Assembly: GCF_900119895.1 (NCBI RefSeq)
Contig: NZ_FQLR01000004.1
Location: 1,054,001 to 1,118,000, forward strand
Length of the DNA stretch: 64,000 bases
Reading direction: 5' to 3'
From: Collinsella phocaeensis
GTDB lineage: Bacteria > Actinomycetota > Coriobacteriia > Coriobacteriales > Coriobacteriaceae
In this document: positions 1,640 through 63,664 of the stretch, piece after piece
Layout: every line of letters begins with the position of its first letter
Numbering within the stretch: the stretch's first letter is position 1
Notes under the pieces: generated by a model
The model's input: only the letters and a program-made list of their open reading frames with translations
The model's database searches: none
Told to the model about the DNA's origin: nothing
Translations under genes and position numbers: made by a program

Positions 1640-2077
1640 CTATGCCTCAAGATGCTCGGCGAGCATCCTGATTGCGTGCGCGTACCCTTGAAGCCCTTCT
1701 CCCGCCACGCGCGCGAAGCATGCCATGCCGGCATAGCTCGTCTGTCGGAACGGCTCGCGGCTGTCGACGTCGGATATGTGTACCTCGACCGCGGGCAGGC
1801 CGACCGCCTTGAGGGCATCGAGGATCGCGATGCTCGTATGGGTGTACGCTGCCGGGTTGATGACGATGCCGTCGTAGACGCCTCTGGCTTCCTGGATGGC
1901 ATCCACCAGGTCTCCCTCATGGTTGGACTGAAAAACGCCTACGGTCTCGAAACCGGCCTCCGCCCCTGCCGCGTGGCAGAGGTCCTCGAGGTCGTCGTAG
2001 GTCTGCGTTCCGTATATGCCCGGTTCACGGATCCCCAGCATGTTGAGGTTGGGACCGTTGAGCACCAAGACGTTCAT
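1640..2077 (-). CDS. aroQ: 3-dehydroquinate dehydratase, type II
   Basis: Third step of the shikimate pathway, converting 3-dehydroquinate to 3-dehydroshikimate; type II enzymes are dodecamers. 145 aa, the usual length. Visible motifs: LNGPNLNMLG at residues 6-15, catalytic Tyr22 in the GIYG loop, SNHEG near 51, INPAAYTHTS near 74, and EVHISD with the catalytic His near 98-103. The ATG at 2077 is chosen because AAGGAG lies just upstream and the family begins at this Met; an upstream in-frame ATG at 2122 would add 15 unrelated residues. Last gene of the aro operon, 25 bases after aroE/K. Confidence 0.95.
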   Translation of the reverse strand: MNVLVLNGPNLNMLGIREPGIYGTQTYDDLEDLCHAAGAEAGFETVGVFQSNHEGDLVDAIQEARGVYDGIVINPAAYTHTSIAILDALKAVGLPAVEVHISDVDSREPFRQTSYAGMACFARVAGEGLQGYAHAIRMLAEHLEA

Positions 2078-2102
2078 GGGTTCTCCTTGTTCCGTACGGC
2101 GG

Positions 2103-3353
2103 TTAGGCGATTTCAGCCGCATCGAGGGTGCGTACGGCCTCCCGTGCGGTCGCGTCAGCGGATTCGCGGGATGTCACGATGATGTCCGCCCACGACCGGT
2201 ACAGCGGCATACGGCGCTCGGCGAGTGCCTCGACGCCGTCGCGCTGCGACAGCGGGCGACCTGCCTTCGAGAGCTCGGCGATCGGCCGGTCGAGCATCAC
2301 GATGATGGAGTTCTGGCGCAGCAAGTCGTAGTTCTCCGGTTGGGTGACGACGCCGCCTCCGCATGAGATGACCTGGCCGCTTCGCGCCGCGATCTGTGCC
2401 AGGCAGTCGCTTTCCGCGCGCCGGAACGCCTCCTCGCCCGCATCGACGATATAGTCGGAGCAGGAGCAGCTGAGGCGCTGCTCGAGTTCCCAATCGATAT
2501 CGACGTGGGGGCGGTCGAGGCGCGCGGCGATTTGCTGTCCCACGCGGGTCTTTCCGGATCCGGGCATGCCGATGAGCGCAATGTTGCGCTCAGAGCGAGC
2601 GAGAGACGAGGTGACCTCTGCGATCCGTTCGCGGCCGACCGTGCGCCCGGTGTAGCGCTCTACCGCTTGGGCGGCTTGGGCGACAAGCATGAGCAGGCCG
2701 CCGACGTTGGGGATTCCCAGGCGGTCCGCCTCCATCATGAGTGCGGTGCGCGCCGGGTTGTACACGATGTCGACGAGCCCCTCGAGACGGGGCAGCGCGG
2801 TGAGGCTGCAGGGGGCCTTGGGGCAGGCGGGGAACATGCCCACGGGGGTGCAGTTGACGGCGAGGGCGGCGTCCGCATGCTCGTCGAGATTCTTGTAGGT
2901 GTGCTTGCCGCTGCGATCGATGGACACGGCCCGCATGCCGAGGTCGGTGAGGACCATCATCGCCGTCGAGCCCGCGCCTCCGCTTCCGCCGAAGACGACG
3001 GCCTTCTTGCCCGCGAGTTCGAGTCCGAGGGATTCGACGAGCACCTTGAACCCGTAGTAGTCGGTGTTGTCGCCGCGTAGCCGCCCGTCCGGCAGGCGCA
3101 CGACGGTGTTGATGTTGCCCATGCGCTCGGCGACCGGGGACAGCTCGTCCATATAGGCCACGAGGTCGCGCTTGTAGGGGATCGTGACATTGAACCCCTC
3201 CCACTCGCCGGAGCGCACGAACGACTCGAGCTCTTCGGGCTCCCGCTCGAACTTGCGGTAATCGAGGCCCGCGAGCTCGCGGTAGATGGTGGGCGTGTAG
3301 CTGTGCCCCAGCACGCGTCCGAGGACGCCGTAGGGTCTGGTCGTCGCCGTCAT
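2103..3353 (-). CDS. aroE-aroK: Fused shikimate dehydrogenase / shikimate kinase
   Basis: One 416-aa protein covering two consecutive pathway steps: NADPH reduction of 3-dehydroshikimate, then ATP phosphorylation of shikimate. Residues 1 to about 250 are AroE: NVTIPYK with catalytic Lys61, GDNTDYYG with Asp98, the NADP loop GGSGGAGST at 122-130, and NCTPVGM at 167-173. Residues about 255-416 are a complete kinase: Walker A GMPGSGKT at 262-269, DID at 285-287, CGGG at 331-334, and the lid arginine in KAGRPL. Both halves keep their catalytic residues, so both should be active. Start ATG follows AAAGGTG. An in-frame ORF continues upstream but has no family similarity there. Fusions of neighbouring shikimate enzymes are known; this pairing may channel shikimate. 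Confidence 0.93.
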   Translation of the reverse strand: MTATTRPYGVLGRVLGHSYTPTIYRELAGLDYRKFEREPEELESFVRSGEWEGFNVTIPYKRDLVAYMDELSPVAERMGNINTVVRLPDGRLRGDNTDYYGFKVLVESLGLELAGKKAVVFGGSGGAGSTAMMVLTDLGMRAVSIDRSGKHTYKNLDEHADAALAVNCTPVGMFPACPKAPCSLTALPRLEGLVDIVYNPARTALMMEADRLGIPNVGGLLMLVAQAAQAVERYTGRTVGRERIAEVTSSLARSERNIALIGMPGSGKTRVGQQIAARLDRPHVDIDWELEQRLSCSCSDYIVDAGEEAFRRAESDCLAQIAARSGQVISCGGGVVTQPENYDLLRQNSIIVMLDRPIAELSKAGRPLSQRDGVEALAERRMPLYRSWADIIVTSRESADATAREAVRTLDAAEIA

Positions 3354-54535: not shown

Positions 54536-55885
54536 GTGCTGTCAGTCGTCTCAACGGTATTCTGGGGCCTGATCACACTTTCTGTGCTCGTCTTTATCCA
54601 TGAGGGCGGACATTTTCTCGCCGCGCGCGCCTGCGGCGTCCGCGTCACCGAGTTTTTCCTCGGTCTTCCGTGCCGATTTCGCCTCGAGAGGCAATCGCGA
54701 GGCTGCGGTACCGTATTCGGCGTAACGCCCCTTCTTCTGGGCGGTTACGCCGCTATCGCCGGCATGGATCCGGACGTCACGCCCCATGCGGCATCCGTGC
54801 TCGGGTACGTCCACCGTCACGGGTTCGCAGAAGTCGACAGGATGGCCGAGGATCTCGGCCTCGATGTCGATGACGTGCTTCTGTCCTGCGGCGAGCTGCT
54901 GTCCATGGGTTCGATCGCGGGCGCTCCCGCCAACGGGCAGCCGAACGATTCCGCGTATCTGCCCATGCGCTACGCGTCCGTCCCCCGCGACCGCTCCGGA
55001 AACACCGTCCTCGACGGTCGGGCCTTCATGAGGGCGGAGGCATCCGAGCAGGGCGAGCCCTGGGTTTCCGATATGTCGGACGATCAGTTCTTGGCGCACG
55101 AGCGTTCCCGCACCTATCAGGGCGTGGGATTCGCGAGGCGTGCGTTCATGCTGCTTGCCGGAATCGCGGTCAACGTGCTGTGCGGCATGCTGCTGCTCAT
55201 GAGCGTCTACAGCATCGTGGGCGTGCAGGCCGTATCCGATGTCAACGTTCTCGGCTCGGTCGAAGAAGGCTCTCCCGCATGGGACTCCGGTCTTCGGGCG
55301 GGCGACCGGGTGCTGGCGATCGGTGATACCGAGACGCCGACGTGGTCCGACATGCTCGACGCCATCGCGCTCGCCGATCCTTCGGGATCGATCGCATTCA
55401 CCTATGAACGCTCCGGTGAACGTGCGACGGTCTCCGTTCAGCCGGGTGATGACGGAATGGTCGGCGTCGGCGCGACGCTCACGACGGTCCGTCTCGCCCC
55501 CTGGGAGTCGCTGCAGGTCTCGTGGGCCTACGTCGTCCAGACGGTGCAGGGCGTCCTGAGGCTCCTGCAGCCCGCCCATACGATGGAGGTGCTCGACAGC
55601 TCGACTTCGGTTGTGGGCATTTCGGTCATGTCCGCTCAAGCCGCGGCTGCGGGCCCTGCCGCCTACCTGTCGCTTGCCGGGCTTATCTCCCTATCGCTCG
55701 GTTTCATGAACCTGTTGCCCATCCCTCCGCTGGACGGCGGCAAGCTCGTCATCGAGGCTGTTCAGGCCGTCGCGCGTCGACCTGTTCCCGTCAAGATTCA
55801 GAATCTCGTTTCCTATCTCGGCATCGCGCTCTTCGGGTTGATGTTCTTCTATATGCTGCGGGCCGATATCCTTCGTTTGCTGTAG
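54536..55885 (+). CDS. rseP: Site-2 intramembrane metalloprotease RseP/RasP with inserted domain
   Basis: Cleaves membrane-anchored regulators and leftover signal peptides within the membrane. 449 aa: TM1 with HEGGH at 22-26, TM2 near 203-228, PDZ domain about 235-310, and the LDG metal motif at 399-401 in PIPPLDGGK, then the last helices. Residues about 78-195, between GGY and TM2, are an insertion absent from standard RseP. Residues 86-132 resemble a winged helix: helix VLGYVHRHG, then AEVDRMAEDLGLDVDDVLLS, then a GSIAG wing. This loop faces the cytosol in RseP. GTG start after GGGGG. Confidence 0.92.
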   Translation: MLSVVSTVFWGLITLSVLVFIHEGGHFLAARACGVRVTEFFLGLPCRFRLERQSRGCGTVFGVTPLLLGGYAAIAGMDPDVTPHAASVLGYVHRHGFAEVDRMAEDLGLDVDDVLLSCGELLSMGSIAGAPANGQPNDSAYLPMRYASVPRDRSGNTVLDGRAFMRAEASEQGEPWVSDMSDDQFLAHERSRTYQGVGFARRAFMLLAGIAVNVLCGMLLLMSVYSIVGVQAVSDVNVLGSVEEGSPAWDSGLRAGDRVLAIGDTETPTWSDMLDAIALADPSGSIAFTYERSGERATVSVQPGDDGMVGVGATLTTVRLAPWESLQVSWAYVVQTVQGVLRLLQPAHTMEVLDSSTSVVGISVMSAQAAAAGPAAYLSLAGLISLSLGFMNLLPIPPLDGGKLVIEAVQAVARRPVPVKIQNLVSYLGIALFGLMFFYMLRADILRLL

Positions 55886-62142: not shown

Positions 62143-62811
62143 GTGGACCTTACCTACCTGCTCTCCAGCGCCCTTGCCGTCATCGGAGGCATCGTCATCC
62201 ATGAGAGCGCGCACGCGCTCGCCGCTTACGTGCTGGGCGATCGCACGGCGCGCTCGCGCGGACGCGTATCGCTCAACCCCCTTGCGCACATCGACCCCTT
62301 CGGAACCGTCTTGCTCCCGCTGCTCATGATGGCGGCGGGCGGCCCGGTGTTCGCCTTCGCGAAGCCCGTCCCTGTATACCTGGGAAACCTGAAGCACCCC
62401 AAGCGCGACGAGGTGCTCGTGTCGTTCGCTGGCCCCGCGTCCAATCTGCTTCTCGCCTTCATAGCCGCACTCGTCCTCAAGGGCCTCGTCGGCCTTCCCG
62501 CCGCAGGCGGCTCCAACATGGCCGGTTCCGTCGCCTATTTTTGCCTGACCTGCATTTCCGTCAATCTCTCCCTTGCGTTTTTCAACCTCATCCCCCTGCC
62601 GCCGCTCGACGGATCGTCGATCCTCGTCCCGTTTCTTCGCGGTCGCGCGCTGTCTGGGTACTATCAGATTCAGTCCATGGCGATGCCCATCCTGATCGTC
62701 GTCCTCTACCTTCTTCCCTCCGTGCTCCATATAGACCTGGTCGGAATCTATTTCGCGTTCACGGTGGACCCTCTGTTCAGCGCGCTCGTGAGGTTCGCGC
62801 TCGGCGCGTAG
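62143..62811 (+). CDS. Site-2 protease family membrane peptidase (M50)
   Basis: 222 aa, about six membrane helices. HESAH at 20-24 is the HExxH zinc site; a second motif LNPLAHIDPFGT and the LDG of PLPPLDGSS supply the remaining ligands; there is no PDZ domain. Substrate unknown. GTG start behind TAGGAG. Sits just ahead of scpA, an order seen in many Gram-positives. Confidence 0.88.
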   Translation: MDLTYLLSSALAVIGGIVIHESAHALAAYVLGDRTARSRGRVSLNPLAHIDPFGTVLLPLLMMAAGGPVFAFAKPVPVYLGNLKHPKRDEVLVSFAGPASNLLLAFIAALVLKGLVGLPAAGGSNMAGSVAYFCLTCISVNLSLAFFNLIPLPPLDGSSILVPFLRGRALSGYYQIQSMAMPILIVVLYLLPSVLHIDLVGIYFAFTVDPLFSALVRFALGA

Positions 62812-62863: not shown

Positions 62864-63664
62864 ATGTCATACCGTATCTCGACGCAGGCCTATTCGGGTC
62901 CGTTCGATCTTCTTCTCCAGCTCGTAAGCAGGCAGAAGGTCGATATCGGATCCATCTCCATCACGGAGGTATCCGAGCAATACCTGGCTGAGGTCGAACG
63001 GCTCGAGGCGCTCGACCTCGATGTCGCCAGCGACTTCCTTCTGGTGGCCGCGACGCTGTTGGACATCAAGGCCGCATCGCTCGTGCCGGACGAGAAGCCG
63101 CGGCCCTCGGTCGACGATGAGGACCTCGACGAGCTCGCCGATCTCGACGGCGACGCGCTGAGGGAAGTCCTCATCGCACGACTTATCGCGTACAAGCAGT
63201 TCAGGAGCGCTGCCGCTGCGCTCGGTTCCCGCATGGAAGCCGAAAGCAGGATGCATCCCCGCGTCGCGGGGCCCGACCCTGAGTTTCTGAACCTCATGCC
63301 CGACTACCTCGCCGGCATCACGCTGCGCGGGCTCGCCGTCATCTGCGCCGACCTCGACGGCAGGAGGGAGACGTTCCTGCTCGAGGCCGAGCACGTGGCG
63401 CCCCATCGCGTTCCCCTTGAGCTCACGGTCGCCTCGGTCGACCGCGTCACCATCTCCCGCCCGCACCTCACGTTCGATGAGCTGCTGGACGGCGATTCCA
63501 CGACCGAGCAGCTCGTGGCGACCTTTCTCGCCATTCTCGAACTTGCGAAGCGCGGCTCGGTCACGTTGAGCCAGAATGAGAACTTCGGAACCATCGCGAT
63601 CGACCGCGTCGAGGGCGCGGCGGAATACCGCCCCGGTGACGCGCTCACCATCGAGGAGGCCTGA
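62864..63664 (+). CDS. scpA: Segregation and condensation protein A
   Basis: Kleisin of the Smc-ScpAB condensin. 266 aa: N-terminal Smc-neck part (YSGPFDLLLQLVSRQKVDIGSI, SDFLLVAATLLDIKAASLV), a linker, then the C-terminal winged helix (LVATFLAILELAKRGSVTLSQNE). ATG after GGGGGAAG. scpB starts 2 bases later. Confidence 0.94.
   Translation: MSYRISTQAYSGPFDLLLQLVSRQKVDIGSISITEVSEQYLAEVERLEALDLDVASDFLLVAATLLDIKAASLVPDEKPRPSVDDEDLDELADLDGDALREVLIARLIAYKQFRSAAAALGSRMEAESRMHPRVAGPDPEFLNLMPDYLAGITLRGLAVICADLDGRRETFLLEAEHVAPHRVPLELTVASVDRVTISRPHLTFDELLDGDSTTEQLVATFLAILELAKRGSVTLSQNENFGTIAIDRVEGAAEYRPGDALTIEEA

Follow-up and report, generated by a model that had tools for sequence, protein, structure and literature searches.

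A predicted winged-helix domain in the cytosolic loop of RseP-type site-2 proteases of Coriobacteriia

RseP-type proteases are models for the intramembrane cutting of signalling proteins. We report that the RseP-type protease of Collinsella phocaeensis, like nearly all of its sampled relatives among the gut and related bacteria of the class Coriobacteriia, carries an insert in its TM1–TM2 loop that is predicted to consist of a winged helix followed by an ordered arm. The helix that would contact DNA in other winged helices is acidic here, and a protein seems a likelier binding partner for the domain than DNA. RseP and the winged helix are each known, and their combination in the TM1–TM2 loop is apparently new, as no published description of it was found in a literature search conducted largely without subscription papers.

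Results

An RseP-type protease with an enlarged cytosolic loop

The analysed stretch of C. phocaeensis DNA (64,000 nucleotides, hereafter the window) contains on its forward strand, as do all features described below, an rseP-like ORF of 449 aa with a GTG start (54536–55885). By its sequence matches, this ORF is an RseP-type site-2 (M50) intramembrane metalloprotease. Specifically, Pfam searches yielded a Peptidase_M50 match (PF02163, E 2.9e-40) and a single PDZ domain (PDZ_6 at 1.7e-9 and PDZ_2 at 6.6e-8, both within residues 238–301), with no CBS domain among the matches up to E 5, and the RseP family model TIGR00054 ('RIP metalloprotease RseP') scored 173.3 bits, above its cut-off of 147.55. 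The HExxH zinc motif (residues 22–26, 54599–54613) lies in TM1, and its H22, E23 and H26 are invariant in an alignment of 49 rows, while L399, D400 and G401 of the LDG zinc motif (residues 399–401, 55730–55738) are nearly invariant over 49 rows. Between these motifs are located a membrane-reentrant beta region (54644–54757; AlphaFold2 strands at residues 37–42, 50–53, 60–63 and 70–74) and the extracytoplasmic PDZ domain (about residues 229–322, 55220–55501). In a Foldseek search with the whole model, the leading matches were B. subtilis RasP (9a6w, a RasP–EcsA structure) and RseP structures from E. coli, A. aeolicus and K. koreensis. The nearest named relatives of the protein belong to Collinsella and share 55–57% identity with it.

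The frames neighbouring rseP are presumably dxr-like and ispG-like, and the gene order of uppS-, cdsA-, dxr-, rseP-, ispG- and proS-like frames, which places isoprenoid and lipid genes around rseP, is ordinary. A second, small M50-type protease frame of 222 aa with HESAH and PPLDG motifs is located at 62143–62811 and constitutes the weak second RseP match of the genome; the frame directly after it (62864–63664) is presumably scpA-like.

The loop between the positions of residues 75 and 199 measures 125 residues in the C. phocaeensis protein, versus 18–29 residues in loci of the Bacilli and Clostridia types; the same short range holds for 14 of the 19 rows that come from the phylum but not from the class. 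This length comparison delimits an inserted segment that, with its flanks, comprises residues 78–199 (54767–55132) and makes the stretch from the beta region to TM2 about 100 residues longer than in most relatives outside the class. An earlier, sequence-only reading of this DNA had proposed an insertion of about 115 residues (78–195) in the cytosolic loop, at 54764–55120 (codons 77–195 of the ORF), and the comparison with the outgroups agrees with it. Longer loops do occur in six outgroup rows, five of them from the phylum (L262, L272, L275, L276 and L279, 55–106 residues) and one from Anaerolineae (L100, 43 residues). None of these six matches the winged-helix profile described below, and in the five phylum rows the TM1–TM2 loop may accept other insertions too. 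The beta region of E. coli RseP enters from the cytoplasmic side, and because the insert directly follows this region, the inserted domain is expected by homology to be cytosolic and to lie beside the active-site entrance.

The insert is predicted to fold as a winged helix followed by an ordered arm

The full-length AlphaFold2 model, built on 49 sequences (the protein itself and related loci), reached a pLDDT of 93.5 and a pTM of 0.86, and modelling of the insert alone on 40 sequences (pLDDT 87.4) yielded the same elements in the same order; both models are predictions, and the sets of relatives behind them overlap. In these models the winged helix proper spans residues 85–148 (54788–54979) and consists of H1 (85–95), S1 (97–99), H2 (100–107), H3 (111–123), S2 (127–130), the wing (131–144) and S3 (145–148), with H3 (54866–54904) at the recognition-helix position. 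The helix-turn-helix pattern with a small wing that had been noticed from the letters alone was therefore recovered, as a prediction, in both models. In the full-length model, block pLDDT was 90–97 over the helix-turn-helix-wing part, but 68 for wing residues 131–140. The winged helix ends near residue 148, and residues 149–199 (54980–55132) form a separate ordered arm that leads into TM2, with a block pLDDT of 90–96 and a conserved G173 and E189-R-x-x-T-Y194. Immediately after H3, the C. phocaeensis protein carries a Met at residue 124 (54905–54907), versus a Trp in 92% of 145 members.

Profile comparisons pointed to the same fold. By hhalign, the insert profile aligned with 29 MarR_2 domains from the same bacterial family at 96.1% (E 3.4e-9) and with 30 GntR domains from that family at 40.6% (E 2.9e-4), while three other RseP regions, serving as control, gave 0.1–1.5%. 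When run against PDB sequences, the insert profile yielded 42 matches up to E 10, the majority of which are named as winged-helix proteins. The best of these, DDRGK1, reached 1.2e-5 over the whole chain as a sum of weak stretches (best single stretch 0.095), and below the top two chains all matches were weaker than 0.03. Structure comparison with the domain model gave a best Foldseek E of 6.7e-3, with none at 0.001 or better, and the 50 rows returned were by description mostly winged-helix-type regulators. With VIA-align the best Z was 7.7, a level that the tool calls common; 7bzh superposed with an rmsd of 1.5 over 59 residues, and ESCRT-II chains were among the matches at Z 7.1–7.2. Both lists are dominated by one common fold, and the absence of any family from them proves nothing.

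Single inserts were less informative as to family. At E 0.1, 130 inserts most often matched the Pfam families TrmB (32), HTH_PafC (22) and MarR_2 (21), with matches spread over 71 families, the best 25 of which include some non-winged-helix families. The C. phocaeensis insert itself did not reach a curated Pfam cut-off, its only match being HTH_PafC at 13 bits versus a cut-off of 32. As these single-member matches are weak and scattered, an assignment of the domain to PafC, TrmB or MarR was dropped and only the fold is claimed. Several lines nevertheless agree on a predicted winged helix for residues 85–148. The checks proposed by the sequence-only reading, structure prediction and profile comparison with winged-helix families, thus returned a confident winged-helix order and a 96% match with MarR domains, and neither outcome that it had named as speaking against it occurred: the predicted fold is that of a winged helix, and the insert is ordered and conserved.

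The insert is present nearly throughout the class

An RseP match was found in 143 of the 149 genomes of the order, the six genomes without a match being 62–89% complete. The loci analysed cover 110 of these 143 genomes. From the remainder of the class, 40 of 46 genomes were sampled, and from the phylum beyond the class, 20 of the 136 with a match. L001 (a copy of the window), L083, L158, L227 (partial) and exact duplicates were left out. Every RseP found in the 110 order genomes bears the insert. Moreover, a profile built from the order inserts recognised 35 of 39 held-out loops from the rest of the class at E 1e-3 and, at the same threshold, none of 49 outgroup loops (19 from elsewhere in the phylum and 30 from other phyla). 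The four missed class loops (L224, L240, L242 and L244) all belong to family f13, are 28–29 residues long and are accompanied by a longer PDZ region (121–136 aligned residues); the corresponding assemblies are 59–93% complete. In L227, the partial fortieth class row and likewise a member of f13, an insert is visible by eye.

All 20 sampled family codes, f1–f20, include one or more rows with the insert (f8 through L143, which had been collapsed as a copy of L046), and named loci place the inner winged-helix domain in genera that include Collinsella, Slackia and Adlercreutzia. Nearly all sampled class members carry it. An insert limited to the genus or arising as a frame artefact was rejected, and the conservation across Coriobacteriia that the sequence-only reading had asked about is borne out by the held-out recognition and by the representation of all sampled families. 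A disordered or freely variable insert was rejected on the pLDDT values and on the same held-out recognition.

A tree of 97 hand-picked rows out of 232, made by a quick method with the insert and PDZ columns excluded, united all 84 class rows in one group (SH-aLRT 99). The four insert-less rows formed a single clade (support 90), which is one of three branches at the unresolved base of the class group, and the insert presence label requires 2 changes on this tree. The simplest readings would be a single gain in or near the class ancestor combined with one loss, or else a gain somewhat after that point, so that the insert-less f13 clade would represent either a loss or the state before the insert; two independent gains are also possible on these sequences.

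The PDZ domain is missing in two clades that retain the winged helix

At most 19 of 94 PDZ positions are filled in all 8 kept rows of family f2 and in the Eggerthellaceae-type loci grouped with them (including Slackia L055 and Adlercreutzia L058). The same holds for L044, L050, L051 and L054, two of which are titled Atopobiaceae, and which retain the winged helix. Pfam found no PDZ domain in L057 and L050, with M50 present in both, and the PDZ-less L057 scored 136.9 on TIGR00054, below the cut-off of 147.55. On the tree, the PDZ-less rows split into one supported clade of 19 rows (98) and another, apart from it, of 4 rows (99), with 2 changes required; both clades have the winged helix.

Within five families, mean identity was 0.60–0.68 for the protease core, 0.43–0.50 for helices 85–130 and 0.40–0.61 for the arm. 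The PDZ domain, at 0.38–0.41 in the four of these families that have it, lies below the helices and the arm, while the wing, at 0.37–0.50 in four families, is similar to or somewhat above the PDZ domain.

The recognition-helix position is acidic

In DNA-binding winged helices, H3 usually sits in the major groove. The mean net charge of H3 (taken as residues 111–124) was –3.23 among 145 non-redundant inserts from 179 members (excluding L100, L262, L272, L275, L276 and L279), of which one was positive and 8 were neutral. Control domains from the same bacterial family, chosen as best-scoring loci, averaged +0.76 for MarR_2 (29 of 30, with L308 left out) and +0.97 for GntR (30 of 30), and the Mann-Whitney p values of 1e-14 and 4e-17, respectively, are not corrected for relatedness. 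Its mean charge dropped to –5.67 in the 39 rows that lack the PDZ domain, compared with –2.84 for H3 of the 140 rows that have it, and the whole winged helix averaged –6.2 and –5.1 in these two sets. At exposed H3 positions, as judged from helix periodicity, the residues vary while acidity is mainly kept, and such shared acidity without shared residues offers no pointer to one specific partner.

The sequence-only reading had suggested that the loop could bind DNA or a regulator and thereby link membrane cleavage to transcription. Because H3 is acidic in nearly all members, DNA binding by the insert appears unlikely and this role was rejected, while a protein partner or substrate became the preferred reading.

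Discussion

Comparison with known proteases and winged helices

The Coriobacteriia protein resembles RseP and RasP, which are group I site-2 proteases, in its HExxH and LDG motifs, its M50 match, its beta region, its single PDZ domain and its TIGR00054 score above the cut-off. It differs from them in the roughly 100 additional residues, predicted to contain a winged helix, between the beta region and TM2, and in the absence of the PDZ domain from two clades of relatives. An extra cytosolic domain on the protease is shared with SpoIVFB and mjS2P of group III, but their CBS domain is C-terminal, whereas here a winged helix occupies the TM1–TM2 loop and no CBS match was found. In SpoIVFB, the cytosolic interdomain linker is described as engaging Pro-sigmaK, with the CBS domain thought to help position this linker while making little contact with Pro-sigmaK and not being essential for processing (PMC11486902). 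As it is the linker and not the CBS domain that holds the substrate, this precedent is only partial. The extra domains named for the site-2 protease groups in the review PMC10202637 are PDZ and CBS, and the word 'winged' is absent from its main text.

With the winged-helix domains of MarR, TrmB and PafC, the insert shares the order of helices and strands as well as profile similarity, but it differs from them in its acidic recognition helix, in being built into a membrane protease and, in the case of the C. phocaeensis insert, in falling below the Pfam cut-offs. Some winged helices bind proteins, and the DDRGK1 and ESCRT-II chains are such protein-binding winged helices. DDRGK1 provided the best whole-chain PDB profile matches and ESCRT-II chains were among the VIA-align matches; these proteins are, however, eukaryotic and of unrelated context, and the similarity may reflect the common fold alone.

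A possible cytosolic docking site or gate

We propose, with the balance evenly poised, that the winged helix serves as a cytosolic protein-docking site or gate, which receives the basic, inward-facing segment of type II membrane substrates, anti-sigma factors for instance. In this form of RseP, the winged helix and ordered arm stand directly between the beta region and TM2, a position that by homology is cytosolic, and the acidic domain would hold the basic cytosolic juxtamembrane part of the substrate at the active-site entrance. The species docked or gated from inside might be candidate anti-sigma-type substrates or their sigma-bound form. Substrate selection would then be cytosolic, whereas for E. 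coli RseP a selection through the beta region and the PDZ domains outside the cytoplasm is proposed. In favour of docking, the insert adjoins the beta region, and the E. coli counterpart of this region is reported to loop in from the cytoplasmic side and to bind substrate (PMC4597795); in addition, the predicted fold is kept nearly class-wide and in both PDZ-less clades, and its H3 is not DNA-like. Counting against it are the Met124 of C. phocaeensis itself, at a position where most members have Trp, and the insert-less clade of four loci.

Several other roles have to be weighed against docking. The domain might instead bind, in place of the substrate, a dedicated cytosolic regulator that would open or close the protease; a released sigma factor, an ABC ATPase and a nucleotide-sensing protein are conceivable examples. 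The DDRGK1 and ESCRT-II chains among the matches fit such a role, as do the deposition of RasP in a model with EcsA (9a6w, by its title) and the description of BofA and SpoIVFA as holding SpoIVFB inactive (PMC10202637). However, no obvious linked partner gene accompanies rseP, which lies among isoprenoid and lipid genes in the window, and EcsB (PF05975), the marker of an Ecs-like ABC partner, was not found in the one genome searched for it, that of C. phocaeensis, so that we regard a dedicated regulator as a possible but rather doubtful alternative. A somewhat less probable role is that of a structural spacer or folded relic that stabilises the TM1–TM2 region and binds nothing. The ordered and conserved arm would suit such a spacer, the conserved L121, W124, G173, E189 and Y194 are as compatible with packing as with binding, and in two compared families the conservation of the wing barely exceeds that of the PDZ domain. 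Yet the predicted fold persists nearly class-wide while the PDZ domain is missing in two clades, and the helices and arm are more conserved than that domain. Finally, the proposal of the sequence-only reading that RseP acts as a membrane-tethered transcription regulator through DNA binding by this domain draws on the likeness of the fold to MarR-type DNA-binding domains, but given the charge of H3 relative to the MarR_2 and GntR controls and the net negative charge of the winged helix as a whole, it seems highly improbable.

In E. coli RseP, the extracytoplasmic PDZ pair is a proposed gate (PMC10202637) and is thought to serve as a substrate size filter (PMC10202637, PMC4597795). As a more speculative extension, to which we give only tentative credence, control over the substrate may have shifted from the extracytoplasmic to the cytosolic side of the membrane in Coriobacteriia: a winged helix, probably captured once from a transcription-factor-like ancestor, would have turned acidic and would now act as a cytosolic receptor for positively charged substrate segments, rendering the PDZ filter dispensable and allowing its loss twice in the sampled rows. 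Such a receptor would amount to a second, cytosolic way of gating regulated intramembrane proteolysis. The PDZ-less clades with a winged helix constitute a natural experiment in this respect, and make the question of what replaces the PDZ filter directly testable.

Candidate substrates in the C. phocaeensis genome

In type II membrane proteins the cytosolic flank is commonly basic, and because this is general among them, charge complementarity with the acidic domain is weak evidence for docking. Five sigma-70 region-2 matches were found in the C. phocaeensis genome, and in two of the four loci examined the gene after the sigma gene encodes a protein whose N-terminus is basic and for which a TM helix is predicted. 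Both downstream proteins are possibly membrane anti-sigma factors. At one locus (L346, 1429–3039), the candidate substrate (2071–3039) carries a charge of +11 before its TM helix and its sigma neighbour matches ECF models. At the other (L345, 1501–3160), the candidate (1892–3160) carries +5 and matches DUF4179, with a TM helix that barely passes the hydropathy threshold.
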